Source: a virus. From it: a DNA stretch of 43,457 nucleotides. The stretch's first letter is position 1; the number at the start of each line of letters is the position of its first letter. Of this stretch, positions 6,778-42,597 are shown in pieces. A program made the position numbers and the translations under genes. Location: IMG/VR virus record IMGVR_UViG_3300027741_000123, positions 1 through 43,457 of that record. One strand, given 5' to 3'. A model generated the notes under the pieces. The model was given only the letters and a program-made list of their open reading frames with translations. It was not told the DNA's origin and made no database searches.

Positions 6778-6832
6778 GTCAATTTCAGGTGCATCCGGGC
6801 GTTGTCCGGGTGCATCTGGGGCTTTACTCAAA
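6773..6832 (+). promoter_or_regulatory. Intergenic RNA hairpin element, copy 1
   Basis: The outer stem TTTGAGT/ACTCAAA (6773-6779/6826-6832) includes the stop codon of the SLOG gene. The inner 15-bp stem is 6786-6800 paired with 6804-6818 around loop GTT, with three G-T wobbles that only pair on the plus strand. Copies 2 and 3 follow the next two genes. No T-run follows, so it is not a simple terminator. Confidence 0.8.
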
Positions 6833-7242: not shown

Positions 7243-7296
7243 GTCAATTTCAGGTGCATCTGAACGTCGTTCAGGTGCATCTGGGGCTTTACTCAA
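7239..7296 (+). promoter_or_regulatory. Intergenic RNA hairpin element, copy 2
   Basis: TTGAGT/ACTCAA (7239-7244/7291-7296) forms the outer stem and again contains the preceding stop codon. The inner 15-bp stem is 7251-7265 with 7269-7283 around loop GTC. Near the loop the arms differ from copy 1 on both sides (CTGAAC/GTTCAG against CCGGGC/GTCCGG), so pairing is kept by compensatory changes. Confidence 0.8.
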
Positions 7297-7480: not shown

Positions 7481-7532
7481 GTGGATTTCGAGGGCATCCG
7501 GCGCGAGTCGGGTGCCTTCGGAGGCTAACTCA
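7478..7532 (+). promoter_or_regulatory. Intergenic RNA hairpin element, copy 3
   Basis: The primary sequence has diverged from copies 1 and 2 but the shape is kept. The outer TGAGT/ACTCA stem (7478-7482/7528-7532) starts at the preceding stop codon, and the inner 14-bp stem is 7489-7502 with 7507-7520, capped by a GCGA (GNRA) tetraloop. Three G-T pairs place it on the plus strand. It lies just before the Shine-Dalgarno sequence of the next gene. Confidence 0.75.
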
Positions 7533-7557: not shown

Positions 7558-8232
7558 ATGTCAGAGGTACAGCAGGGCAGCAACAACCGGCAGGACATCT
7601 GGATGTACGGTGATCTGCAGAGTCGTATCAACATCCCGTGTCCGCAGACGGATTTCGGGCAGATGCAGTACAACAAGGCGATCCGTCGCAATCAGGTGGA
7701 CCGTCAGCTTGGTCTGTCGTACGTGAAGTTGGAGAACGAGATGCAACTGTTCTCGTTGTGGCTTCCGGAGAACCCGGTCGGAAAGCAGTTCATCACGATC
7801 ATGACGGACGCGACGCAGCGTGTGTTCATCGCAGGGAAGATGGCTCTCACGATCGAATCGGAGTTCGGGATGATCATCCCGCTCATGATGCCGGACCCAG
7901 ACCGACCAAAGATGACGATGGTCGCGGACGAAGCGTACATGGCAGAGAACCCCGACGCGGTACTGACCGGCAAGCACGATCTGGCTCACTGCAACGCAGA
8001 AGCCGTCGAAATCGTCAAGAAGGCGCGTGGCACTCGGGCGAAGGACGGGTGTTACCCGGAACGCCACTGCATCTCGTACTGCTACTGGCCGACGCTTCAG
8101 GAGTCCACTGACTTCATGAACGATGTGCGCGCAGCGATGCAGTACTACATCGAGCGTGCCATCTGGGCGGATGATCCCGCAGGTGCCATCATCAACGCCG
8201 AGCAGGACGAACACGAAAACATTTGGGCCTAG
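7558..8232 (+). CDS. Cassette protein of 224 residues, unknown
   Basis: It starts at ATG 7558 with AGGAG upstream; the upstream in-frame extension covers hairpin element 3 and is rejected. The N-terminal half is beta-rich (YVKLENEMQLFSLWLPEN, QFITIMTDATQRVFIAGKMA). The C-terminal half has a cluster HCNAE...GCYPERHCISYCYW that could bind metal, and an acidic tail. I recognise no family. It has the same GC-rich codon use as the three genes before it and is the last gene of the cassette, followed by two strong hairpins. Confidence 0.8.
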   Translation: MSEVQQGSNNRQDIWMYGDLQSRINIPCPQTDFGQMQYNKAIRRNQVDRQLGLSYVKLENEMQLFSLWLPENPVGKQFITIMTDATQRVFIAGKMALTIESEFGMIIPLMMPDPDRPKMTMVADEAYMAENPDAVLTGKHDLAHCNAEAVEIVKKARGTRAKDGCYPERHCISYCYWPTLQESTDFMNDVRAAMQYYIERAIWADDPAGAIINAEQDEHENIWA

Positions 8233-8239
8233 CGGCAAC

Positions 8240-8278
8240 CGGGTGGGGGTGCGCGCAAATCGCGCGTTCCCCCACCCG
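8240..8278 (+). terminator. Strong GC hairpin after the cassette
   Basis: CGGGTGGGGG (8240-8249) pairs with CCCCCACCCG (8269-8278). After one T-T mismatch the stem continues as GCGCGC/CGCGCGT around a short AT loop. It starts 8 bases after the last cassette stop. There is no T-run, so it may pause or stabilise rather than terminate. Confidence 0.6.
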
Positions 8279-8292
8279 CTCGCAGTGGTTCT

Positions 8293-8320
8293 GCTCGCAC
8301 CGGCATGGGCCGGTGCGAGC
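8293..8320 (+). terminator. Second perfect hairpin after the cassette
   Basis: GCTCGCACCGGC (8293-8304) and GCCGGTGCGAGC (8309-8320) form a perfect 12-bp stem with loop ATGG. It is followed by AAAATTAAAAG, not T, so on the plus strand it lacks a canonical tail. Together with 8240-8278 it marks the end of the GC-rich cassette. Confidence 0.6.
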
Positions 8321-8345
8321 AAAATTAAAAGTTGGTGCCGTGTAG

Positions 8346-8915: not shown

Positions 8916-9130
8916 TTGTCGTCTGAGCGACGTTAAATAGGCTTTAGGCTCAGAGCGTCCCCCGTTTGGGGGTGTAGCGTTGGAGGATCATCGACGGATG
9001 TGATTCCTGAACGCGGTTGGGGCGTGCCATCATCGTCAACCGTTAGCTTATAAGAGATGGTACTGGATCAGATTGATCGTCTGATTTGGGGGAAGACCGG
9101 CAAGTTGATCGCTTGTCGGTCTTTCTTTTT
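8916..9130 (+). ncRNA. Structured RNA candidate ending in an intrinsic terminator
   Basis: The stretch has no usable frame. Helices include TCTGAGC/GCTCAGA (8922-8928/8948-8954), CCCCC/GGGGG (8959-8963/8968-8972), CGTT plus GGATCA with TGATTCC plus AACG (8978-8990/9001-9013), and GTTG plus AACG arms with CAACCGTT (9010-9019/9037-9044), the last competing for AACG. It ends with a textbook terminator at 9093-9130. That architecture suits a phage small RNA or a structured leader. No known class was recognised. Confidence 0.5.
9093..9130 (+). terminator. Intrinsic terminator abutting tRNA-Lys
   Basis: AAGACCGGCAAG (9093-9104) pairs with CTTGTCGGTCTT (9112-9123) over 12 positions including one G-T wobble, followed by TCTTTTT. 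The T-run ends at 9130, and the first base of tRNA-Lys is 9131. Confidence 0.9.
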
Positions 9131-24680: not shown

Positions 24681-25579
24681 ACGCCCATGAACCCATAAAG
24701 ATCAAGAAGCCGACGTGACTCTTCGCTGCTGCGTCGATCTGCTTCCATACGCCAACGTTGTGCTTGTTTAGCATATGTTTCTGTCGGGACTTCTAATGCA
24801 TTACGTGACTGCCCTTGCCGGGTGAAGTCCAAACGTAATGCTTCTTTGTCATACATCAGACGACTAGCTGCACCGAATGTAAGAATATCTTCTGCTGAGA
24901 TTGGAAGACCAACAGTTGATTGCAGATCAGTAGCAGTAGTAACACTTGCGGTATCTAAAGTTTTTGCATAAGTAATTCGAACGTCAACATCTTGTGCGTA
25001 AAAACGACCACGATCAATTTGAACCGAATACCCACTGGCGTAATCTGTTGTGTCTTGGTTACGAACAAGTCGTGTAACTAAATTAAAAGATGGATAACCA
25101 ACGCCATCAAAACTTTTACGTTCCGCATCAAGGATACGAAACACTTCACCAGTGGCACCAGCCAAATTAATTTGATTTACATTGGCAGGAAAGTTGAGTG
25201 TTGTTGTAACAACTTTGTAAATCGAACGAGGGATTGCACGTAACTCTTGTAACACTTCATTAAAAATTGCTTGTTTAGGAAATCGAGGTTCAACAAACAT
25301 AGGGATACCAGCAGTATGCCCAATAGCTACAGTGTCATTCCAACCACGTAAAACTGTAAGCGTATAAGGAGCAGCAGATGCAATTGCCATTACTAACATC
25401 TGTTCGTATTCCAATTCAATAACTGAACCAACAGCTAAATCTGGCGTAGGCGTAAAGCCCGGAATTACAGAATCAGTTGAAGAATTAACAGTAGTCCCAA
25501 GAGTATTAATACGATCACGGCCAACAGCGCCATCTAATTTAGATTTAGTTGCAGAAACGATTGTGTTCATTGTACTCAC
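24677..25579 (-). CDS. Neck/tail adaptor protein candidate
   Basis: This 300-residue protein starts at GTG 25579 in a GTGA overlap; an ATG nine bases later has a poorer spacing. The N-terminus SATKSKLDGAVGRDRINTLG, the beta-rich stretch VIELEYEQMLVMAIASAAPY and the helical C-terminus (KQAQRWRMEADRRSSEESRR) are shared, as I recall, with actinophage proteins encoded between capsid and tail genes. A head-tail connector or tail-tube accessory role is inferred from position. No enzymatic motif is seen. Confidence 0.65.
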   Translation of the reverse strand: MSTMNTIVSATKSKLDGAVGRDRINTLGTTVNSSTDSVIPGFTPTPDLAVGSVIELEYEQMLVMAIASAAPYTLTVLRGWNDTVAIGHTAGIPMFVEPRFPKQAIFNEVLQELRAIPRSIYKVVTTTLNFPANVNQINLAGATGEVFRILDAERKSFDGVGYPSFNLVTRLVRNQDTTDYASGYSVQIDRGRFYAQDVDVRITYAKTLDTASVTTATDLQSTVGLPISAEDILTFGAASRLMYDKEALRLDFTRQGQSRNALEVPTETYAKQAQRWRMEADRRSSEESRRLLDLYGFMGV

Positions 25580-26412
25580 GGCAACCTCAATTCTTTTTTA
25601 GGTTTTTGAATACGTTCTTGGTATTCATCCCAAAGCTCTTCATTTAATTCTAACGTTTTAATATGCCCAGTGCGAACACCGGTATGAACATACGTTGCGT
25701 AACCCAAAGAATTAGCGCGCATACAAAATGCAATGTCCTCTCCGAATTGAACGCCTTTTGATAGACCTTCTACAAACCATGGGTGCGGATTAGGTTGACC
25801 AAAAGCATCAGTGCTGAACCCATCCGGGTGCGGTTTAGCCATGTGTTGCAATACCTGCCGATGCACCAACATAAAAGCAGCACCAGTTGCTAAAACTTTA
25901 ACTAAAGCATTACGTGGATAATCTGTTACTGGTTCCGGAACAACTTGATCTAAACCATCGTATGCTTTACGAGTTATACCAGCGTAAAGAGTTGGATACA
26001 TTTTAGTTCGACCACCCGCAAAACATAAACCACCAATAATGTAACATTCAGGTTTGCGTGATTTGGCTTTACGATTTCCACCATATGCATGACCTAACAA
26101 TTGGCATAAAGCATTACGTTCAAATGTCATGTCGGAATCAATCATAAATAACCAATCAACATTCTTATAAGTAGGATCAGTTAAAAACGTGTCAATAATT
26201 TGTGACCGACCTTCAGCAACCCGTGGACCAGTCAACAACTCAATAGAACCACCAGCAATTACATGTTGACACGCCGGTATAACCCCATCTCCAACTGCGT
26301 CAAACATTAACAAACTATTCCAATCAGAAAAAGTTTGATGTTTAATTTCTCCTGCGCTTAACGTAGAAATTGCGACGCTAACAGTTGGATGAGGACGCAC
26401 TTCTGACACCAT
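25576..26412 (-). CDS. GT-A glycosyltransferase in the head-tail block
   Basis: The 278-residue protein has a GT-A fold layout: first strand TVSVAISTLS, a nucleotide-sugar region ending in the DxD motif MIDSDMTF (D92, D94), an acceptor-side GGLCFAGG, GEDIAFCMRANSLGY (E225, D226) and TGHIKT (H250). It would transfer a sugar from a UDP- or GDP-sugar. Its place directly after the capsid gene suggests glycosylation of virion protein; modification of host surface or DNA is also possible. ATG 26412 has AAGGAGG four bases away, which the upstream hairpin loop could mask. Confidence 0.88.
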   Translation of the reverse strand: MVSEVRPHPTVSVAISTLSAGEIKHQTFSDWNSLLMFDAVGDGVIPACQHVIAGGSIELLTGPRVAEGRSQIIDTFLTDPTYKNVDWLFMIDSDMTFERNALCQLLGHAYGGNRKAKSRKPECYIIGGLCFAGGRTKMYPTLYAGITRKAYDGLDQVVPEPVTDYPRNALVKVLATGAAFMLVHRQVLQHMAKPHPDGFSTDAFGQPNPHPWFVEGLSKGVQFGEDIAFCMRANSLGYATYVHTGVRTGHIKTLELNEELWDEYQERIQKPKKELRLP

Positions 26413-26416
26413 TTAG

Positions 26417-26470
26417 CCTCCTTGTGAATGTGGCAGGAACCAGTAAGGAGGGAAACTGGTTCCTGCCACA
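26417..26470 (-). promoter_or_regulatory. 16-bp hairpin with a loop complementary to the next Shine-Dalgarno sequence
   Basis: Between the capsid gene and the glycosyltransferase gene, 26455-26470 and 26429-26444 form a perfect 16-bp stem with loop TTCCCTCCTT on the minus strand. The loop segment CCTCCTT is the exact complement of AAGGAGG (26423-26417), the Shine-Dalgarno sequence just downstream. No T-run follows, so it is not a classical terminator. A loop-to-SD pseudoknot could repress translation of the glycosyltransferase while the stem protects capsid mRNA. Confidence 0.7.
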
Positions 26471-26495
26471 TAAGATTAAACAGCAATACTACTGT

Positions 26496-27653
26496 TTATG
26501 AATAGCTTAAAGCAGTCATGCGGAACATGTGCTTTTGGCCTTTAACTTGCAGACCCTCTTCACAAACAATTTGACCTTTGTCAGCATCACCAGTTTTAGC
26601 AAGGGACTCAAACACAAGAGGGCGGAGGATACGACGAGTAACAAGATCGCGTTTGATACCAAATGCATCATTAGGTGAAACCCAACGGTTACGAACAATT
26701 GGGAGGGACCCATACTCGGTTTCAACAAACGAAGTTGAAACACGACCACGCTTAGGATCATCCACGGTTTGCCGCACAACACCGGTATTGCCAACATCGT
26801 TCAGATCCAAAAGACTTGCAGGGTTAACCACAAGTCGATCCGGGAGACCACCAGCGTTGTAACATTTTTGAAGTTGAATTTGCACGTTTAAAGCAGAAAG
26901 CGAACTTGTCGAAGTGTCAACATTAGTTGAAATGAAATAGGCAAGACCACCCGTAGTACGAATCTTAGAAGTAGTACTGTTAGAGAACTGACCATAAAGA
27001 TATGCTTGCTCTCGCGACTGACTATTTTCATAAGTACGAAGATGCAACTGATGCGCCCACTGATCCGGGATACCATAACGCGGAACAACACGGCCAGTAC
27101 CAGTCATTTGAATAGCAGTAGGACCAAAAATTTGAGTAACATTTGTGGACTTACTAGTATCATCAGCACGGAAAGCAGCAGGATCAGAACCTTCGGCAAG
27201 TGCGGTACCAAGACCAATAATAACTGCACCGGCATCATAAGTATCTGCGGTAGCATTGGCCGCATAATTGCGTGTAACCGTCAAAGTATCAGTAGTAGTG
27301 TTGATTGCAGTAACACGCAAAACTTCAGGAACGTTTACTGCTGCTTTACGAATAGTTAAAACATCACCAGTGCTGAATTTGATTCCGTCACCACTTGCTA
27401 CAACAACAGACGTTGTAGTTGTACTAGTAATAGCAGTTTGCAAAGTAGTACGAGGTGCAAGATTACGCTCATCAAGCCAGTTGAAAAGAATTTGATCAAC
27501 CGGACGTTGTGAAATAACTGACATACCGTCTGATGCCATGCCGGTAAGCATGGGAAGTTCTTCGGGCGAGTACATATAAATAGCCTCGTCCATATTAACG
27601 ATAAGACCATTAGTCAGATCGTAAGAAGTAGCGGTACCCGAAAGAGTAGCCAT
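26496..27653 (-). CDS. Major capsid protein, SU10/DUF5309 type
   Basis: The 385-residue protein matches the HK97-fold major capsid group formerly called DUF5309. It has an N-terminus with EAIYMYSPEELPMLTGM, a central immunoglobulin-like insertion rich in Thr/Val (about 75-145), an E-loop or P-domain with FGPTAIQMTGTGRVVPRYG, DQWAHQLHLRTYENSQSREQ, and the C-terminal LPDRLVVNPASLLDL and GIKRDLVTRRILRPLVFE. It follows a scaffold candidate and a small CxxC protein. The start ATG 27653 has AAAGGA about ten bases upstream. No protease gene was recognised. Confidence 0.9.
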   Translation of the reverse strand: MATLSGTATSYDLTNGLIVNMDEAIYMYSPEELPMLTGMASDGMSVISQRPVDQILFNWLDERNLAPRTTLQTAITSTTTTSVVVASGDGIKFSTGDVLTIRKAAVNVPEVLRVTAINTTTDTLTVTRNYAANATADTYDAGAVIIGLGTALAEGSDPAAFRADDTSKSTNVTQIFGPTAIQMTGTGRVVPRYGIPDQWAHQLHLRTYENSQSREQAYLYGQFSNSTTSKIRTTGGLAYFISTNVDTSTSSLSALNVQIQLQKCYNAGGLPDRLVVNPASLLDLNDVGNTGVVRQTVDDPKRGRVSTSFVETEYGSLPIVRNRWVSPNDAFGIKRDLVTRRILRPLVFESLAKTGDADKGQIVCEEGLQVKGQKHMFRMTALSYS

Positions 27654-31012: not shown

Positions 31013-32728
31013 TTAACCCTTTCCGGCTTGAATGACAGCATCGTAACCAAATTTAGAAAACAGACTTTGTAATCCATTAAACATATTGTTCATTGTAGTT
31101 TCATCCATAGAATAATCTCTTGCATTTTTTAGCAAACGAGTAGCGAACTCTTGATCTGTACGAGGCCGAATTGAATATGGATCAGACATATAAGCGTTGC
31201 CGACACCAGTAGAATTCCCATATAGTTGCGTATAAGGATCAGCAACATAACCACCGGGCATGGCAGAGGTGACAACCGGATTCGCCATTTTCTGTAAAAC
31301 TCCGGCCACACGTGTACGACTATCATTAGGCGTAGGTGTTAGCCGAAAACCACCAAGATTATTTCTACCATTCCTATTGGCGCGAGCTACATCTTCATTA
31401 GTCACAAACGCATAAGCAACATCTTCCCAATTCTGCCAATTATGTTGACCAGAATAAAGATCGTTAGCGTAAGCACGGGCTACTGCGTCTTGAGCTTCTT
31501 GACTATGATTGCTGGAATCAATATTTCGAAAAACATTTGTTGTGTAATAATCCCAAATCTGTTGGCTTAAACCATAAGCACCAAAGGCATTGCCTTGTTT
31601 TTGATCCCAAGTATAAGAACTACTTTTAACTGCATTTAAAAATTTGCCAACATCATCACCAAATGATTGAGTACTATTAATATCAATACCAGCAATTGAT
31701 GGAGCTTCTGCCCCATCTTTAACTGACAAAATTAATCGATAACCTGCCTCCGGATTATTCGGATCAATAGCTTGAATCTCGTTTCTATCCCAAACCGCAC
31801 TGGAATCAGCTTTGTTACTAGCAACCCAATCACTTAAAGCCTTGATCTGTTCGGTATTCCCCGTCATAGTTAACGCACGATACGCACGAAAATCTGCACC
31901 ATCTCCTACATTACTTAACGGCTGTAAACCATAGACGCGAGCCAATTGATTCAAATAAGACTGTGCCGTGGAATCCGGTCCACCACCACGTAAAGGAAGA
32001 GCATTAACAGCAGCATCGCTGTTGCTGCTTCCGTACCCCCCATAATTGGTTCGATACGGGTTGTCAGCCGACGTATTTGCATTTGCAGTTTTACGTAATA
32101 AATCTTGTGTTTCTTCTTGAGTAAAATAACGACCAAGTTTACTTAAAGCCCACGTTTGGATTCCTTCTAATGCATCAGCATAATTAAACGCTTGAGCAGT
32201 AGCAGTTTCTCTTGCCGCAGCGTTCATTGAAATTTTACGATTCATATAAGAATCTAATGTGTCTTGTCCGCCATTGACTCCACCGCTAGTAGCAGCTTCA
32301 TCAAAAAATAAAAGAAACGCGTCCTTAGTTGCAGCATCCATTTGAGGCGAAGTCGGAGGACCTTCTGTATTAGGTACTGGTTCTGTTGATCCCGCACCAT
32401 TTTGAGCAAGAACAGCACCAGCAGTCCCACCAGTCAAAAAACCTGCACCCCATAAACGTTCTTTCAGTTGAATAATTTCAATAGAACTCATACGTTCTAA
32501 CAAACTAATTGCATCACCACGACGAATCTGTTGCGGGAACCAACTAGGGAAAGCACCAGATTGAGCAGGTTGATATCGGTTACGTAATTCAATAACAGTT
32601 TGATCGTCTAATTCTTTACTCTGCGGATTACGTGCTGCAGCTATCCAACCTCCAGAACTAGGAGCAACCGTAGAAGATGTACCTGATGTACCTGATCCAC
32701 CTGTTGGATTAAAATCATCCGAAGCCAT
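31013..32728 (-). CDS. Virion protein with lytic-transglycosylase-like domain
   Basis: The 571-residue protein starts in a TAATG overlap with the giant gene. Near residues 365-460 it reads WDQKQGNAFGAYGLSQQIWD and then AVARAYANDLYSGQHNWQNW, the core of SLT/lysozyme-like domains, where GxYGLxQ follows the catalytic glutamate. I do not see a clear glutamate before this motif, so activity is uncertain. The N-terminus is Ser/Gly/Thr-rich and disordered. It would locally open peptidoglycan during DNA entry, like the wall-digesting domain of T7 gp16. Confidence 0.75.
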   Translation of the reverse strand: MASDDFNPTGGSGTSGTSSTVAPSSGGWIAAARNPQSKELDDQTVIELRNRYQPAQSGAFPSWFPQQIRRGDAISLLERMSSIEIIQLKERLWGAGFLTGGTAGAVLAQNGAGSTEPVPNTEGPPTSPQMDAATKDAFLLFFDEAATSGGVNGGQDTLDSYMNRKISMNAAARETATAQAFNYADALEGIQTWALSKLGRYFTQEETQDLLRKTANANTSADNPYRTNYGGYGSSNSDAAVNALPLRGGGPDSTAQSYLNQLARVYGLQPLSNVGDGADFRAYRALTMTGNTEQIKALSDWVASNKADSSAVWDRNEIQAIDPNNPEAGYRLILSVKDGAEAPSIAGIDINSTQSFGDDVGKFLNAVKSSSYTWDQKQGNAFGAYGLSQQIWDYYTTNVFRNIDSSNHSQEAQDAVARAYANDLYSGQHNWQNWEDVAYAFVTNEDVARANRNGRNNLGGFRLTPTPNDSRTRVAGVLQKMANPVVTSAMPGGYVADPYTQLYGNSTGVGNAYMSDPYSIRPRTDQEFATRLLKNARDYSMDETTMNNMFNGLQSLFSKFGYDAVIQAGKG

Positions 32729-35700
32729 TAGTTACCTTTCGTTGCTGCTTGTAATGCAGCAGTAGATTTCAAATTAGTTGCAGGAAGAATCAAACTTGTC
32801 CAAACTTTTTGGACTTCAGGATTATCTGTAACAAAAGTTTGCCCCCAAGACAAAAAGTTTTGACGCAAATTATTCCGTTTTTCACGGCTACCTTTACTAT
32901 TTTGACCTTTCAACAAATCATATTCGTACACATAAGTGTCATAACCCCGAACAAGTTTTCGCATTGGTTCTAAATGTTCAATCTTTGGCAAGTCTTTATC
33001 TTCAAAATTAATGACATCAGACAACTGACGTAACACTAACTCCGCATCATTATTAACTTGACTTGCAATTTGATTAGCAAAAATAGGATGTTGTTTCATG
33101 AACGTATCAGAATAGATGTTCCATCGATCCGTAATTTGACGACGGGTAGCTGAATCATCAGTGTTTTCCAAAGCAACATCTTTTCGTAATTTATTTGGAA
33201 AATAAAGATTTGCTGCAGAAGCAAACCTAAGATCTCTGTACCACTGCTCCGGATCTTTCTCTAATTTAAAACCATAAGAAACAAAATCAGTAAAAGCTTG
33301 CTGAGAAAACTCATCAGATTCTTTGGCTTGCGGCATTAACCAAGGCGCAGCTTTTGGATATTGATCCATGAAGTCTCTGTTTTGAGTCATCCAATTTAAA
33401 GCGCGCGCACTAGGAGTCAACGGTGCTTTAGTAGTTTTAGTTGTAACAAAAATACTCCACGGTTGACCTTCAGGATGTTCGCTTAAAAACACACTTAATG
33501 CTTCATCAGGGTCCATGTATTTAATAAGTTCACCAAATTCCGGTGCTAACTTTTCATTAGCAAATTCATTTTGCGGAGTAATCGGACCCACAAACCCAAG
33601 AAAAGCACGTAACAACATATTAGTACGCGCCCAATTAGTAGCTTTCTGAATATAACGTTCAATCTCTATATCTGAAGCGTCCTCAGGAATACTTAACGAA
33701 TTGATTTTTGCAACAAGAGCATCACCCGCTTTGCTATTAGGATCGTCCATCGCCGCAAGTTCTGCTTTCAATGACAAAGCCTGAGATTCCATTTGAGCCA
33801 TTGCGGTAATAGTTGCTCTATTCAATTCGCCACTAGACAATGCAGTACCATTTTGAAAAGTTGCAGTCCATAAACGCTGATAATTAGCAGGAACAAACTG
33901 CGCGATTGTTGTTCCTACCAAATCTTTCCACGTTGAAGCATTAACAGCACGGCCCGCAGATAACGCTGAAATAACCGGTTTAGCTTCAGGGAAATGTTCC
34001 GCAACTACAGTTGCAGGAATCATACCGATTGGCGACAAAGCGGGAAGATTCTGGAAATCAGCAGGAACACCCGGCAAAACATTATTGATTTTTCCAGTCA
34101 AAGTGTTAGCAACAGGAACTTCAAAACCCTGTCCAAATATAGCGTTCATGCCCGGAATACGACTCATCAGTTCTTGTAACGATTCAGTCATTGGAAAAGC
34201 AAAAACCTTTTGTCCCGACGTTGGATCATCATGAACAAAACCAGCAGAGCTAATTCCATGTACAAGAAGTTGTACACGCCGAAAAGCTTCCGGAGAATAA
34301 GTTGTGGTTTTTACCCAACGCTTCAAAAAAGATTCTTGAGCAAATTCAAATGGAACAAGGTTTTTAACTTTTTCTTGAAAAAAACTTCTGACCTTATGGT
34401 CGTCAATGAACGGTAACATATCGGACATCGCTCGCGCATTAGCAATTTCCATATTCATCTTTTCAAGATTGGCATCAAACATAACCCAATCAAGAACAAC
34501 TTTTAGATCTTCATCATTCATTGTCAACAATACTGATTCGGGATCCAATTTTTGTGCATACACAAGACCATTAATTTCTTTTGTAAAATCTTCAATATTC
34601 CCAATAGTTTGTCTAGTCCCCATAGGAATCATTGACCACGCATTTTGTATTTCAATAATTGTATCTTCCGGATCTAAAGCCCTAGGAACAATACGTTTAA
34701 TCACAGAATCAAATTTGGAATCTAAAAGACTATCGCGCAACTGCCCAGTGACAGCACGCGCCCATTCCAAACCATCTGATAAACCCAGCATATACATTGG
34801 GCTACGTACAATACTGAATACGGCTGGTCCGATAACTTCGCCAAATCCCCATGTCACAAATTTTTGCCATGCGTTTTCTGGGGCTACAAATCGTGTGGGA
34901 CGCAACAACGTCCGAGGAAAATCCCTCATTGGGACTTGCGCTAAAGCGTCAACTCCAAAAGTTCCCGCATGAATGGGTGATAAAATTTCATGTAAGTATG
35001 AACCATTAGAAGAGTTGGTAAACATATTGAAAATAAGATCAGCAATTGTTTCTCCCCAAACACGAAAAGCTTCATCTTGATGTACACCTTGTACCACATG
35101 TTGACCAAAGTCATCTAATTGTCCGGCTTCGTTATACCGGGCATACGCTTCGTCTGGAAAAAATACTTTAAATTTATTCATTAAAGTATCATCTGTAATT
35201 TTTACAATACTTGGGTGATCACCTAATTTTTCAAAAGCTCCAAGAGAATTCGCAACATTAATTTTTCCAGTTTGAGCAAATGGCAAAGATTCAGGACGAT
35301 GATGACCCATTACATATGGCCTAAATTCTCCGGCTCCCGTAGTCATATCAGTTAACAAACTAGAAATTCGATTAGCTTGATCAAAATCTGTAAATGCAAT
35401 GTTATTTATAGGCGTTAACGGAGTTGTTTGAGTCGAAGCATGAAGCATCTGATCTGTTAATTCGCTATCAAATGAAACAAATAACTCGTTAATGATTTCA
35501 ATTTCATCAGGAGTTGCGCCTTTTTCTATTAATGCAGTTCGAATTGGTTCAAATCCACGTAATGAATCATCCATAGAATTGCGAAGTTCTTTAAATAAAT
35601 TAACAGTATCTGCATCCATCATTACCGTATACAAACTTGTTGTATTTGTAAAAGGTGAATGAGTTACTTGTTGACCGGTTATCGGATTTTGAATACTACG

Positions 35701-38700
35701 AGGATTACTGTCAACAAAAAAACGATAATCAGGATCATGTAAATTGTTAATGGCTGCTTCAACAACTGCAGCGCGATCGGAAACAGGATCAGCAATAGAA
35801 ATAGGTGTATCGTTTAATAACGATTGCCCAATTCGTTTGGGACCACTAACAAAAATTTCCAAAGCCTCCATTAAGGAATTGTTTCCTTGATCCGACAATC
35901 TAGAAGCTTCAATAACAAGATCTTCAAACCGACTACCAGTTGGATACATTTTTAAAGCTTGACGGATTGGTGCAGGTAAAGATTCAAGATCAATGTTTTT
36001 AGCAATAAATTTTTCGCTAACTCCAGTTTCTCCTTTAAACGCAATGTCACCTTGCATGAATTCTTCAATCATGCGTTTTGTTTTTTTAGGCAAACTTTGA
36101 ACGAAACTTTGGAGTTCGCGTAAACCACCGGCAATGGTATCAACGTTCATGCGACGAGCTTGAGTAACCGGAATCCGAACTGTAGAACCATTTTCAATTG
36201 ATTGTTGAACAAACGTTCGGACACCACCATCCGGCATAACACGCCAAAAATTGGAATCTGATATATCGCTACTCCCAGCGACAATCCTATTTAATTCTTC
36301 TAAAAGTTCTCCGCGTGAAAGACGATCCCTGATAGTTCTTTTTCCAATTACACTTTCAGTCCGTCCGCTTCCCGGATCAATCATAATGAACTTGCCTTTA
36401 GGGATTACAATTTGATCATTCGCACCAGTTGCTAATTCAATCTCATTAGGGCGATCTGCTCCTAATCCGCGGGTAAAAGGTTTCGCAGCTTCTCTATCAA
36501 TAAGCACTGTTTGTGAAACACCGCCACCCCACATTTGTGCAAAATCAAGATTGTATTGTGTTTGAGCAGTTGAAATTGCACGGCCTGCATTGCGACCTGA
36601 ATAATTAGTTCCTAAAACAAGATTGCCTTCTTTGTCTACATAATATTGAAAATCTGCATTTAGGGTACGTACAATATACTTTTCTTGTAATCTCCGATAT
36701 TCTTTAATCGATTCAATTATTTGTGTCGCATCAGTAGAGCCAAAAAGATCAGGATCGGCAAATAAATCTGGAGTATCTTTTACATATTGTTCGAACAACG
36801 CAATATTTTCATCAGAAAAACGAGTGTTAACTTGTTCTTTTGTAAGATGAGACAATTCGTTGAAACCATAAGTTTGCGAAATCGCTGGGTAATCGTGTGC
36901 TGAATCTCCACCATAAAGTATTCCAGATCCAATTTGGTCTTTTTGTATTTCACCACGGGACAAAGCAAGTACTTGATCAAAAAGTTTTGCATCAACTAAC
37001 ATCGTTTCAATATCATCTTGACGAATAATTTGTTCAGGTTGTAATTGATCAAAGTATGCTAAAGAACCCGGACGGGTATCTCTAATCAAAGTTTCATATT
37101 GACGAATTTCTTTTTTAGTAAAACCTGTTTTTACTAAATCGTCATAAACACTAGAAACATCAACAAGTTGACTTAAAGTTTTTGTGTCATGAAAAATGGC
37201 TGAAGCATTTGTTACAACGGAATTATCAGCATTTGAATTAAAAATATCTAAAATATTTTGTTTGTTTAAATTCCATGTGCGAGGATCGGCTACATTTTCT
37301 AACGGTGGTTGATACGCAATTGCATCTCGCAATCCGGATCGGACAAGTTCCTCTAGTTTAGGAATTGCTTCAAGTTCTTTTAATTCTGCAACAATTGTTG
37401 AAAGATCTTGACCGGGTTTAGCAGTTGCAGCTTGTTGCAACAAATCTAAAATTTGAGGGTTATTCCCTAATTCCGTCCATAATGCAGCAATGTCATTGCT
37501 ATTAGAATTCCAAGCTATTCCTAAACTATTTAAATGTGCAATCTGACGATCAATTGGGTCTGGACGAAGAGGTGTGTCAAGATGTGGAGCGCCACGATAA
37601 TATGGGTTGGCGGGGTCATGAGTTTGTGTCCATAAATCTGTATGGGATCGATCAAATTCTGTTGAAGTATCTAAAAAGGATTCTACTTCATTGCGAATAC
37701 CCTGAATCAAAGTTTCTTCGTCGTCAATATTTTTTAAGAAATTTTGTGCAATTGGGTCATCAATAGATTCGTAACCCCATTTTCCTGTTGCGTTAAATAA
37801 CAACTGATCTTTAGTATTATTTGTGATGATTTCTTTGGTGTGGTCAGATGCAAGATTTTGAAAAGTTCCAATAAGGCGATTAACAAAATTGGTTTTGCCT
37901 TCTTCAGTTAAAGTTTGATAATGCGCCCAAGCAATTGTACGCAACATCGAATATGCATCATTCAATTGTGGATTTGTAGCATACGCAGCAAAGCTAACTG
38001 TATGTGCAAGTTCGTCAGCAACAGTTTCCGCAAACTCACGAACCTGCAATTGCAAAACTTGTTCGCCGTTAACAGTTGTTATTTTAACAAATTGATTTGC
38101 AATATCTGGCCTTTGCTGCCCAAGGATTCTTAATAACTGCCCAACTTGCTCAACATGTTCTGGAAAACCGTCAATAGCCGCATTGACCTCCCATTGCGTT
38201 CCAGCGAGTAGAGGCTCAACGTGAGTAAGAAAATCGTCTTCAGGTAACTTGCCCAATAACGGTGCAGTTGATTGAACCATAATTGGATCGTTATCAATTA
38301 ATGTGTAAATAGGAGCAACATCATGCAGCATCGCTTCTGCTTCACCGTCTGCGGGATCAAAAGTATTCCATTGACGATCTTCCAATAAAACAACTTCGCC
38401 TCGGTTAGAACGATCAAATGAAGATTTTTTAATTGTAAGTCGTTGAGTTGCAGAATCTTCTAAACCATTAGCCGGTGCAATCATCCCGCCAATGCTTGCT
38501 TGTTGATCTGCAAAAGCTTGTTGACCTAAAGGATTACGAAGCAACATCGCTGTGTCACGTTTCATTGCTTTGTTGATTGTTGCTAAATCAATTAATCCAA
38601 GACCTTCCGCCAAAGCAGCATTATCTGTTTGTCCTAAAACTGCTAATACACCTCTTTGTAATTGTTTTGGTAAAAATTGGAATTCAAAATTTCTCATCGA

Positions 38701-41700
38701 TTTGACAATACGCGCGGTGTGATAAGTTGACGCTAATTGCAAATAATCAAAAGTTCCTAGTTTTGCATTTAATCCAAGAGTTTCAGCAACATGATGCATG
38801 TACTCTGCTTTGTTTTTAAATTGCAAAACTGTTGCAAGATTAGTTAATTCTTCCCCTAATCCGGCGCGCGATGCTTCACCCCAAAGTCGTTTAGGAAGTT
38901 TTCCTAAATGATTTAAAGGCGTATTAAAAAATCCGTCACGTTCTAATAATTGAGTTGCGTGTTTTGCAGCCCAATTTGGAGTACGAGCTAATCTGTCAAG
39001 AGTTCCAAAAATAAAACCACGACGATTTTCTGCAATGTTAGAAGCAACTGATGACATGGGCGCCCAAATTCCTCTACGTGCATAGAACGCAAGGTATTCT
39101 TCACCAGCAGCACGCGGAATAAATCCAAGTCGCATTAACGTTAATGGTTTCCATACGTTAGTCATTGCTGCAGTAAGGAAATCTCCATTTAAACGTCGAA
39201 GAACTCTACTGGTCATAGAGATACGTTGCATGACATCAATAAATTCTTTGACGTTAGGAATTCCAATACGTCCGGCATAGTTGCTAATTGGCATTACGCC
39301 AATACGCAATTTTTCAATAGCATTAGCTCCGTTACGAACAGCTAATATATCTTCGTCATTAGGTGTGTAACGGAATCGTTCAACATGGTTTAAGAAATCA
39401 TCTGCTAGTTTTCTTCCTTCTGCACTTTCTAAAACACCGGCTGCATCAAACAAGGCACGCATGAATTTTTTTTCAACAAAAATACGCGAAGCTAAAGTTG
39501 GGTTAGTAACTTGCGGCATATACGAACGCACAATTTTTAGAATCTCATTATCTTTAGCACTTAATTTGGCAAGTTTCTTTCCAGCAACATTCGCCTTTGC
39601 CTCCATGACATTGCCAAGTTCTGCAGCAATGTAGGACCAAACACCTGAAGTGTCTGTACGGAGATAAGACGGATCTCGTCTTGACTCAATTGTTTGTTGT
39701 AATTCTTTTTTAAGAAAATCAATTAAACTAATTGAAGACGGATTTAAATTAGGATCAATAGCGGGATCAAAAGCAAAAATTTCATCAAAAATACTTTCAT
39801 CTCCATTATCTAAAATAGATAATGCACTATCAATTTCACTTTCAAATAAATTACTTACGCCTTTATTTGGATTGTCAATAGGTATACCCCGGATAAATTC
39901 TTCCATAAATTTATCTAAAGTTTCTTTGTCCATGCCTGCTAATACGCCATAATTTAAAAGTTTAGAAAATTCAACAACGCCTTTTTCCCCAGCTAAAGGT
40001 AACCATTTGTTTTCAGGTACATGATTGGCAAGCGCCCAAAGAATTTTTGCTCCTTTGCGTGCCCCCCACGTTGCAGTACGAACAAAAAGATTTGGGTGTG
40101 CTTGTGTAGCAAGAATTGCTTTAGTTGCATCTTCGGTAATATTAATAAAGCTACGTAAAAATTGTGTTCCGGATGTAAGCCGAGGTAATTCTGCTAATGA
40201 ATGGCGACTAGTAAAATATGCGTCATCTGCTAAACGTCCAAACACACGCCATGTATTACGCACATAAGCACCATTACCAAAACCACGAATATTAAGACCA
40301 GTAAAATCACCTGTCCCTAATCGATACAAACCATCTGTTTGTAACCATTTCCAAAGATCTGCACGCGATTTAATTCCACCTAATCCTTGTCCAAGTAATT
40401 TTGTTTCCAATTCTTGCAACACCGGAACTTGGACCCTTCCATAAGGAAGGTCTTTCATAAGATCAACAATTGCATTAGGAACGCCATTCCGTGCGTCCTC
40501 AAATCCTTGGACGACTCTATCCATCCATGTACGCGTTCCTCGTAAACTTGTTTTTTGTAACCAATTAAATGTTTTTGAACCTAATGTATCCAAAATGGGT
40601 TTACCGGTTCGCATCAAGATGGAACTCAATACATCAATATCTTCAAGAGAAGTATGGATGCCATCAATTATTATTTGGCTACGAGTACCATTTAATGGTG
40701 ATGCTAAACTTTGTCGAAAAGAATTTGCTTGTTCCAATAATGAACTTTGAATTTCATCGTAATAGTCTAATAAAAATTGAGTTGGATATCCCTCAGCATC
40801 AATAAGAATATTTTGTGCAATTAATTTATTAGATTGGATTAAATTTATTGTTGTCTGCGGAATACCTTTTTGCAATAAACGATCAATAAAAGAAGAGACA
40901 TTAAAAATATTGGAAGCGTCGTTAACACGTGAAATGATTTCTGGAGTTTGTGCAACTTTGATAATTGTAATTGCACCTTCCGTGCCTTCAGCAACATTTT
41001 TAAAATTCCCAATAATAGTTCTTTCCACTGTGCGTGCAGAATCTAAAGCTGCCGCTAAAGCAATTTCACTAGGAGCAATTCCGTATGCAGCAATCCGAGT
41101 CCATTTAACTGCAGGACCAACAACGTTCATTGGGTCTAGAACTACAGTATTGATTGCATCAGCAGTACCGGAAATGCCCGTGTACGCTGCGCTATCTTGA
41201 GGAATTCCTAAACCACTAGCTAATGAAGTTCCCCACGTAAGCAAAGAATCTTTGCCTTTAATTTTGTTTACTGCATTTTTAAATTGTGGTGTATTCGCAA
41301 CATTGTTTTGCAAATATGTAAACCGGTCACGCATTTCATTGCTTTGTGGATCTAACCCTTGCTTAACTAAATAATCAGCAACTTTCATGCCCGAAGCAAC
41401 GGCCCGAGCCAATTCGTAACTTTCGTAATTTCCATCCAACATTTGAAATGCATCAAACGCATTATTTGATCTCACATAATCTGCATCGTTGTCTGCTCTA
41501 TCCCACGCCGCAGCGCCACCTTCTTTAAAAAAATCTTGGTTGTTTACTTCATCTGCCAATCCGCGAAATTGATCAAAAAGGTTATCTGGAACATTTTTTC
41601 CTGATGTGTTTGGTTCAGCAAAATTTTCTGTACGAGTTGTGATTGTTTGATTGCGTCCGTTTAAACCTGAAATCCAAGAAGGCATACTAGTGCCGGGATT

Positions 41701-42597
41701 ATTTTTTGATCCCCAATCTGCAAACGCTGAAAGCATTGCTCCCGGATTCATATAGTCTCTTGTGTAAGATCCCGGTGGCGCTGCTTCATTGGTATTTACT
41801 GGTTCGCCAGCTTTTTGACGGTAATTAACTGTATGGACATTCATTGCACCGTAACGATAAAAAAGGTTTTGCCATTCATCTTCAGTAAGACGGATACCAT
41901 TTTTTTCCATTAAATATTTGGCGCGTCCTATTTTTAAATTAAATCGGGCTTTTTGTGATTGACCACTAATTTCGTCTTGATAACGAGCGTGCCGAGAATT
42001 AACGTCATCAGCCAAATTACTAACATCTTCAAATAAAGACATTGGGTTTACATCAATAACAGGTTTGTTGTACCAAGCGTTTTTATCGCCAATTGTTAAA
42101 TCGCCTTGACCTATTGTTAAATGTTCATCTTGAAATTTTTGTGAATCTTGAAGAGTACCAACAATCGGATCAATTACATTGTTAACAAGAACATGTTGCG
42201 GCCATTCCCACCAAGAAACAAAATTCTTAGCTGGAGCAGCTGGAGGAGAATAACCGGCGTCTAAATAAAAACGTTGTTGGTCTGCACTCATTTTGTTCCA
42301 TCGGGAACGTTGTTGATCCTCACTATCGTCACGAAATTTAGCAACGGTTAAAGCGCGAGCAGCAAGTGACACAGATCGGCGTGCTGTACGAACCATTTCA
42401 TCATCGTCTAAAGAAGAAGTAGATAACGTAGTTGCACTTGCCGGATCCAATTCTAAAACTTCGGTTTGCAACAACTTAAACCGACGATTATAAAAAGCGG
42501 TTTTGTCATCAATAGATGATGGTTGTGTAGAAGAACCAGAAACCGGAGTAGACGGATTAGTGGGTTCTTGCGGTTGTTGCAAATAATTTGTGGTCAT
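32728..42597 (-). CDS. Giant virion-associated protein, 3,289 residues
   Basis: One uninterrupted frame from ATG 42597 (ATGA overlap). The first 60 residues are disordered Pro/Ser/Thr/Gln. The rest is mostly helical with repeated soluble domains. Landmarks are WKPLTLMRLGFIPRAAGEEY near 1,147, DELAHTVSFAAYA near 1,526 (one residue short of a zincin HExxH), YYRGAPHLDTPL near 1,664, IDPGSGRTESVIGKRTIRDR near 2,067 and WGFGEVIGPAVFSIVRSPMY near 2,580. I found no convincing RNA polymerase, protease or ADP-ribosyltransferase motif set. I recall similarly huge genes in podovirus-like Microbacterium phages. An ejected internal virion protein is the best inference. Confidence 0.75.
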   Translation of the reverse strand: MTTNYLQQPQEPTNPSTPVSGSSTQPSSIDDKTAFYNRRFKLLQTEVLELDPASATTLSTSSLDDDEMVRTARRSVSLAARALTVAKFRDDSEDQQRSRWNKMSADQQRFYLDAGYSPPAAPAKNFVSWWEWPQHVLVNNVIDPIVGTLQDSQKFQDEHLTIGQGDLTIGDKNAWYNKPVIDVNPMSLFEDVSNLADDVNSRHARYQDEISGQSQKARFNLKIGRAKYLMEKNGIRLTEDEWQNLFYRYGAMNVHTVNYRQKAGEPVNTNEAAPPGSYTRDYMNPGAMLSAFADWGSKNNPGTSMPSWISGLNGRNQTITTRTENFAEPNTSGKNVPDNLFDQFRGLADEVNNQDFFKEGGAAAWDRADNDADYVRSNNAFDAFQMLDGNYESYELARAVASGMKVADYLVKQGLDPQSNEMRDRFTYLQNNVANTPQFKNAVNKIKGKDSLLTWGTSLASGLGIPQDSAAYTGISGTADAINTVVLDPMNVVGPAVKWTRIAAYGIAPSEIALAAALDSARTVERTIIGNFKNVAEGTEGAITIIKVAQTPEIISRVNDASNIFNVSSFIDRLLQKGIPQTTINLIQSNKLIAQNILIDAEGYPTQFLLDYYDEIQSSLLEQANSFRQSLASPLNGTRSQIIIDGIHTSLEDIDVLSSILMRTGKPILDTLGSKTFNWLQKTSLRGTRTWMDRVVQGFEDARNGVPNAIVDLMKDLPYGRVQVPVLQELETKLLGQGLGGIKSRADLWKWLQTDGLYRLGTGDFTGLNIRGFGNGAYVRNTWRVFGRLADDAYFTSRHSLAELPRLTSGTQFLRSFINITEDATKAILATQAHPNLFVRTATWGARKGAKILWALANHVPENKWLPLAGEKGVVEFSKLLNYGVLAGMDKETLDKFMEEFIRGIPIDNPNKGVSNLFESEIDSALSILDNGDESIFDEIFAFDPAIDPNLNPSSISLIDFLKKELQQTIESRRDPSYLRTDTSGVWSYIAAELGNVMEAKANVAGKKLAKLSAKDNEILKIVRSYMPQVTNPTLASRIFVEKKFMRALFDAAGVLESAEGRKLADDFLNHVERFRYTPNDEDILAVRNGANAIEKLRIGVMPISNYAGRIGIPNVKEFIDVMQRISMTSRVLRRLNGDFLTAAMTNVWKPLTLMRLGFIPRAAGEEYLAFYARRGIWAPMSSVASNIAENRRGFIFGTLDRLARTPNWAAKHATQLLERDGFFNTPLNHLGKLPKRLWGEASRAGLGEELTNLATVLQFKNKAEYMHHVAETLGLNAKLGTFDYLQLASTYHTARIVKSMRNFEFQFLPKQLQRGVLAVLGQTDNAALAEGLGLIDLATINKAMKRDTAMLLRNPLGQQAFADQQASIGGMIAPANGLEDSATQRLTIKKSSFDRSNRGEVVLLEDRQWNTFDPADGEAEAMLHDVAPIYTLIDNDPIMVQSTAPLLGKLPEDDFLTHVEPLLAGTQWEVNAAIDGFPEHVEQVGQLLRILGQQRPDIANQFVKITTVNGEQVLQLQVREFAETVADELAHTVSFAAYATNPQLNDAYSMLRTIAWAHYQTLTEEGKTNFVNRLIGTFQNLASDHTKEIITNNTKDQLLFNATGKWGYESIDDPIAQNFLKNIDDEETLIQGIRNEVESFLDTSTEFDRSHTDLWTQTHDPANPYYRGAPHLDTPLRPDPIDRQIAHLNSLGIAWNSNSNDIAALWTELGNNPQILDLLQQAATAKPGQDLSTIVAELKELEAIPKLEELVRSGLRDAIAYQPPLENVADPRTWNLNKQNILDIFNSNADNSVVTNASAIFHDTKTLSQLVDVSSVYDDLVKTGFTKKEIRQYETLIRDTRPGSLAYFDQLQPEQIIRQDDIETMLVDAKLFDQVLALSRGEIQKDQIGSGILYGGDSAHDYPAISQTYGFNELSHLTKEQVNTRFSDENIALFEQYVKDTPDLFADPDLFGSTDATQIIESIKEYRRLQEKYIVRTLNADFQYYVDKEGNLVLGTNYSGRNAGRAISTAQTQYNLDFAQMWGGGVSQTVLIDREAAKPFTRGLGADRPNEIELATGANDQIVIPKGKFIMIDPGSGRTESVIGKRTIRDRLSRGELLEELNRIVAGSSDISDSNFWRVMPDGGVRTFVQQSIENGSTVRIPVTQARRMNVDTIAGGLRELQSFVQSLPKKTKRMIEEFMQGDIAFKGETGVSEKFIAKNIDLESLPAPIRQALKMYPTGSRFEDLVIEASRLSDQGNNSLMEALEIFVSGPKRIGQSLLNDTPISIADPVSDRAAVVEAAINNLHDPDYRFFVDSNPRSIQNPITGQQVTHSPFTNTTSLYTVMMDADTVNLFKELRNSMDDSLRGFEPIRTALIEKGATPDEIEIINELFVSFDSELTDQMLHASTQTTPLTPINNIAFTDFDQANRISSLLTDMTTGAGEFRPYVMGHHRPESLPFAQTGKINVANSLGAFEKLGDHPSIVKITDDTLMNKFKVFFPDEAYARYNEAGQLDDFGQHVVQGVHQDEAFRVWGETIADLIFNMFTNSSNGSYLHEILSPIHAGTFGVDALAQVPMRDFPRTLLRPTRFVAPENAWQKFVTWGFGEVIGPAVFSIVRSPMYMLGLSDGLEWARAVTGQLRDSLLDSKFDSVIKRIVPRALDPEDTIIEIQNAWSMIPMGTRQTIGNIEDFTKEINGLVYAQKLDPESVLLTMNDEDLKVVLDWVMFDANLEKMNMEIANARAMSDMLPFIDDHKVRSFFQEKVKNLVPFEFAQESFLKRWVKTTTYSPEAFRRVQLLVHGISSAGFVHDDPTSGQKVFAFPMTESLQELMSRIPGMNAIFGQGFEVPVANTLTGKINNVLPGVPADFQNLPALSPIGMIPATVVAEHFPEAKPVISALSAGRAVNASTWKDLVGTTIAQFVPANYQRLWTATFQNGTALSSGELNRATITAMAQMESQALSLKAELAAMDDPNSKAGDALVAKINSLSIPEDASDIEIERYIQKATNWARTNMLLRAFLGFVGPITPQNEFANEKLAPEFGELIKYMDPDEALSVFLSEHPEGQPWSIFVTTKTTKAPLTPSARALNWMTQNRDFMDQYPKAAPWLMPQAKESDEFSQQAFTDFVSYGFKLEKDPEQWYRDLRFASAANLYFPNKLRKDVALENTDDSATRRQITDRWNIYSDTFMKQHPIFANQIASQVNNDAELVLRQLSDVINFEDKDLPKIEHLEPMRKLVRGYDTYVYEYDLLKGQNSKGSREKRNNLRQNFLSWGQTFVTDNPEVQKVWTSLILPATNLKSTAALQAATKGN

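Follow-up and report, generated by a model that had tools for sequence, protein, structure and literature searches.

Known hairpins and pseudoknots at gene junctions

Strong RNA hairpins directly behind a major capsid gene, within polycistronic late operons, are already known from phages. T-phi of phage T7 lies between genes 10 and 11, and hairpins behind the major capsid protein (MCP) gene are present in several Streptomyces and Microbacterium phages whose hosts are known. The locus described here resembles them in placement: a strong, conserved RNA hairpin separates the MCP stop codon from the start codon that follows, both in the window (the whole 43,457-nucleotide stretch of viral DNA that was analyzed, IMG/VR record IMGVR_UViG_3300027741_000123) and in all relatives in which this region is readable. 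It differs in that the known post-capsid hairpins compared have no anti-Shine-Dalgarno (anti-SD) sequence in the loop and no tie to the SD of the next gene, the motif being absent from the Streptomyces and Microbacterium phages as well, whereas the window hairpin has such a loop and is without a U-tract.

H-type pseudoknots that sequester an SD are also established, among them the preQ1-II and SAM-II riboswitches, rpsO and repBA. Here the likeness is in a loop sequence that can pair with the downstream SD region and in the position of the motif beside the 3' strand of the stem. The phage hairpins differ in having no known ligand or protein, in sitting between the genes of an operon instead of in a 5' leader, and in having longer stems (9-17 bp, those of the riboswitches being shorter) with linkers of 3-10 nt, so that partial opening would be needed in most of them.

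A third comparison is offered by the ESAS of Cluster K mycobacteriophages, 17-bp inverted repeats with a spacer of mostly 4-13 bp. They directly precede an element that bears the SD of phage genes, these genes being non-structural (PMC3203893). Inverted-repeat length and position just 5' of the SD element are similar. The ESAS repeats, however, have a common consensus sequence and occur together with a 13-bp repeat, and their authors see little support for hairpins in the mRNA (PMC3203893); that 13-bp SAS repeat, GGGATAGGAGCCC, has no match in the window at up to two mismatches. A literature search, incomplete in coverage, found no report of hairpins with anti-SD loops, and such a hairpin between phage genes is probably undescribed.

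The hairpin behind the capsid gene

The elements of the junction, in the order in which the minus strand is read, are as follows.

26496..27653, minus strand: major capsid protein gene (SU10_MCP), 385 aa; Pfam PF17236, E 3.8e-50; PHROG 1328 major head protein, E 8e-35
26455..26471, minus strand: 5' arm of the hairpin, ATGTGGCAGGAACCAGT, from inverted-repeat search and folding
26445..26454, minus strand: loop TTCCCTCCTT, 10 nt, with CCTCCTT (anti-SD) as its 3' end, from sequence and fold
26428..26444, minus strand: 3' arm of the hairpin, ACTGGTTCCTGCCACAT, from inverted-repeat search and folding
26424..26427, minus strand: linker TCAC, 4 nt, from sequence
26417..26423, minus strand: Shine-Dalgarno AAGGAGG, from sequence
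25576..26412, minus strand: glycosyltransferase-like gene, 278 aa; PHROG 34859 glycosyltransferase, E 4.8e-11; PHROG 1574, E 6e-15

Hairpin and SD both lie inside the 83-nt gap between the capsid stop codon and the downstream start codon. The stem is perfect, with 26471-26455 pairing with 26444-26428; an initial annotation had described it as 16 bp, but an outer A-T pair extends it to 17 bp. That annotation had also placed the SD ten bases past the stem, where the actual distance is 4 nt, and had correctly put it four bases before the ATG (26412-26410, minus strand), the spacer being CTAA. Its reading of the loop holds by sequence: CCTCCTT is the exact complement of the downstream AAGGAGG and matches the anti-SD of 16S rRNA. 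As for the two genes, which it had named capsid and glycosyltransferase, Pfam and PHROG matches make the first assignment (SU10_MCP) firm; the second is of moderate strength, as the product has a PHROG match to a glycosyltransferase family and no match in Pfam. No close relative of the window region turned up in searches of annotated phages, and no confirmed relative of the window capsid in searches of bacterial genomes.

The hairpin has a folding energy of -30.9 kcal/mol, and no other perfect inverted repeat with a short loop in the window is as long; the 141-nt context of the hairpin folds with z = -5.0, and none of 200 shuffles was equally stable. By inspection, no structural gene of the window has an SD as strong as this AAGGAGG. 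CCTCCTT occurs four times in the 43,457 bases, both strands counted, and two of these occurrences are the hairpin loop and its SD. Simple arithmetic under equal base frequencies puts the chance that a given 10-nt loop contains a 7-nt complement of the next SD at about 4 x 4^-7 = 2.4e-4. The fold also shows the SD paired with coding sequence, a pairing that was set aside, as the complementary TCCTC is absent from the relative L002 described below.

An Rfam 15 scan at the hairpin gave no family above its gathering score; the matches below threshold were generic miRNA models, which match any perfect hairpin, and one weak match. Elsewhere in the window the plus strand has a Pistol self-cleaving ribozyme at 8917-8979 (Rfam RF02679, 60.4 bits against a gathering score of 34.5). 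This ribozyme immediately follows a small ORF, and about 150 nt separate it from a tRNA gene downstream. Two strong tandem hairpins (8235-8327, plus strand) stand behind an ORF ending at 8232. Three similar plus-strand hairpins (6781-6823, 7246-7288 and 7482-7527) occupy gaps between small ORFs, each some 15-20 nt before AGGAG and a start codon; the first two contain AATTTCAGGTGCATC, and none has an anti-SD loop. The structural module also includes a single ORF of 3289 aa (32728-42597, minus strand) that takes up nearly a quarter of the record.

Conservation among capsid relatives

The two nearest relatives, L001 and L002, were retrieved solely by capsid similarity. In L001 the stem differs by one base, the loop is TCCCCTCCTT and the SD is AAGGAGG. 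In L002 the stem is 15 bp, and 9 of these 15 pairs are changed on both sides relative to the window, with no one-sided change and no broken pair; the loop, TATCCTCCTT, retains eight of ten bases, including the entire CCTCCTT at the same position. These pair swaps around a retained loop indicate that structure is maintained in the stem and sequence in the loop, the contrast between loop and arm conservation having p = 0.06 when this single comparison is taken alone. Because the loop is kept in L001 and within the rewritten stem of L002, a chance origin of the match between loop and SD appears unlikely.

Loss of the loop with retention of the SD, which the initial annotation had named as evidence against its proposal, is seen in neither close relative. 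Covariation of loop and SD, which it had suggested as a check, is less telling: both elements are kept in L001, while in L002 the SD is one base different and the loop unchanged, the SD itself being constrained by 16S rRNA. The SD of L002, like that of the unrelated loci L190 and L210 described below, is AAGGAGA, which leaves the first C of the loop motif unmatched. Covariation cannot in any case prove pairing of loop and SD, because any SD complements the anti-SD by definition.

More distant capsid relatives, at about 50% identity, have a strong hairpin (about 11-18 bp) after the capsid gene wherever the region is readable, but without an anti-SD loop, the loops being unrelated and mostly small. 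Across 15 relatives the pairing of the stem is preserved by compensatory changes and by changes from G-C to G-U; these fit the coding-strand RNA and, in these comparisons, show that selection acts on the RNA stem itself. Since the distant relatives have the hairpin without the loop, the hairpin is taken to be the older element, with a role beyond the loop, and the anti-SD loop to be an addition in one branch.

Strength of the SD largely follows the same division. The SD duplex energy is -8.2 to -11.7 kcal/mol in the three capsid-family members with an anti-SD loop, against -5.6 and -6.5 kcal/mol in L003 and L030, distant members without it in which the SD is similarly placed and a possible glycosyltransferase is encoded downstream; the SDs of distant capsid relatives are mostly weak. 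L010, however, has a fairly strong SD, yet no anti-SD loop, and the group of L013, L018, L026 and L031 possibly combines a fairly strong SD with lack of the loop, the start codon being less certain there. No anti-SD loop was found with distant relatives of the downstream gene.

Recurrence in unrelated phages

A blind scan of IMG/VR sought CCTCCTT followed after 13-27 nt by AAGGAG(G), with an ATG one short spacer further on, and then a strong stem enclosing CCTCCTT. Among the matches listed in two scans, 15 of 230 viral sites have such a hairpin, the threshold for stem score having been set after a first set of hits was seen; with near-copies removed, these represent about ten further unrelated phage families among the matches listed. 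When the motif was scrambled (TTCCTCC) and the downstream pattern left as it was, one of 109 matches listed had a hairpin, and the scan of bacterial genomes gave none in 134 matches listed. For the matches listed, Fisher p values are 0.026 against the scrambled control and 0.0015 against bacteria, and 0.004 at family level against the pooled controls. Between two of the new loci, L188 and L196, 4 of 11 stem pairs are changed on both sides, while the loop is identical at 16 of 16 positions.

A major capsid gene precedes the element in the window family, L210 and L416. L188 and L196 share a different upstream protein, of 132-135 aa, which in L188 is encoded by the gene after the capsid gene; behind the L188 capsid gene there is a further hairpin, from which the motif is absent. 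In L198 and L368 the upstream gene codes, by synteny, for a probable major tail protein, relatives of which sit between a tail completion gene and, farther on, a gp15-like gene. In L396 the element is found between a gene for a probable ssDNA-binding protein (a weak match, E 0.006) and a DNA-polymerase-like gene, and in L121, L190, L163, L219 and L419 the neighboring genes are other or ambiguous, the contexts of the last three being less clear. As far as gene context goes, this supports a putative role in lowering expression behind abundant products.

Relatives of the tail protein at 52% identity have no hairpin at all, and the anti-SD loop was found neither with tail-protein relatives in annotated phages nor with relatives of the L188 capsid in Streptomyces and Microbacterium phages. 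Annotated phages gave no relative of the L188, L396 or L121 upstream proteins. One further locus, L306, surfaced through the control pattern: in its first 100 bases the minus strand has a 16-bp hairpin with an interrupted anti-SD, TTTCCTCCCCTTTC, as its loop, 10 nt before AAGGAG and ATG and ahead of possible head genes.

Geometry and energy of a possible pseudoknot

The loops have a geometry that fits an H-type pseudoknot, with L1 = 3 and L2 = 0 in the window and ranges of 2-7 and 0-4 over all families. Of 11 families, 10 have the motif closer to the 3' arm (L1 > L2) and one is a tie (p about 0.004); in six the motif touches this arm (L2 = 0; p about 0.009), both p values being relative to random placement inside the limits of the scan patterns themselves. 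This 3'-side placement argues for pairing in cis, as a loop acting in trans would have no such preference.

Reach was estimated from an A-form model in which the linker has to run the full length of stem 1. For an unopened stem of 17 pairs the span is about 59 A, beyond the reach of a 4-nt linker; in the model the length of the third loop becomes sufficient once 3-4 bp are opened in the window and 0-4 bp in the other families. The rough net free energy of the pseudoknot relative to the hairpin, for which a pseudoknot penalty of 8 kcal/mol was assumed and the error is several kcal/mol, is -2.0 kcal/mol in the window, -1.7 in L001, +4.7 in L002, +5.6 in L210 and -7.6 to +1.9 in the others. Since the stem must open and the energy is near neutral, pairing would be partial or conditional. 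The pseudoknot of the initial annotation, proposed to block ribosomes, fits the complementarity, conservation and recurrence of the loop, but it could not form on an intact 17-bp stem and would give a partial or conditional block.

Interpretation of the anti-SD loop

The interpretation that we favor, and for which we see about equal chances of being right and of being wrong, is that the hairpin serves as a translational attenuator of the downstream gene in cis. Between the capsid stop and the next start, the hairpin would display CCUCCUU on the 3' side of its loop. On opening of a few basal stem pairs, in which a terminating ribosome might assist, the loop could pair with AAGGAGG in an H-type pseudoknot stacked on the stem. 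Such pairing would compete with 16S rRNA and lower initiation on the downstream gene, and one polycistronic mRNA would then yield much capsid and little of the downstream product.

Since the strong post-capsid hairpins of all readable capsid relatives have unrelated loops, and several cultivated Streptomyces and Microbacterium phages have post-capsid hairpins too, the stem might instead act as a transcription attenuator, a stabilizer of the 3' end or a processing site after the capsid gene, its loop being incidental or neutral. The compensatory and G-U changes would suit such a role, as they reflect selection on the RNA stem. The stem is followed by TCACAAGGAGG, however, with no U-tract as an intrinsic terminator would have, and it is absent from a terminator scan (which takes loops of 3-8 only); moreover, retention of the loop despite a rewritten stem and the excess of anti-SD loops over controls would go unexplained. 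We consider this reading unlikely, though it is the least so of the alternatives. A helpful hairpin is the hardest to credit: a closed stem would hold the anti-SD off the SD and keep the start region open, with a strong SD offsetting lost translational coupling. The SD does lie outside the stem, is only weakly paired in the minimum-energy fold and is the strongest among the structural genes, and a melted stem would allow a 7-bp anti-SD:SD hairpin of -7.8 kcal/mol; insulation, though, requires no anti-SD, and nearly any other loop would serve it better.

Improbable as well, if less so than a hairpin that aids expression, is mimicry of the 16S rRNA 3' end in trans, by which the loop would act as an SD sponge or as bait for a factor that binds this end, such as a ribosome-assembly factor. 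Likeness to the 16S tail extends beyond CCTCCTT in L396 (ACCTCCTTTCTA), L121 (ACCTCCTTTCA) and L210, an extension that pairing with the loop's own SD does not need, and L002 retains CC although its own SD is without the matching G. Mimicry would not lead one to expect the excess of L1 over L2, with zero nucleotides between CCTCCTT and the 3' arm in six families, or, within the capsid family, the association of the loop with a strong SD next to it (the blind scans covered only sites next to SDs). Because SD and anti-SD are both constrained by the ribosome, sequence alone cannot separate action in cis from action in trans.

Attenuation in cis may extend beyond this family. More tentatively, and with somewhat less confidence than for the locus itself, we suggest that anti-SD-loop hairpins could be widespread, unrecognized cis-regulators of phages, evolved repeatedly behind genes for abundant proteins and throttling the next gene through a reversible SD pseudoknot, possibly modulated by the ribosome. 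Phages need hundreds of copies of the capsid protein and few of the neighboring products from the same mRNA. If the suggestion is true, a compact translational element, made of sequence only, would explain part of phage stoichiometry; a simple pattern would suffice to recognize it in any genome, and it would provide a small, portable part for the tuning of operons.
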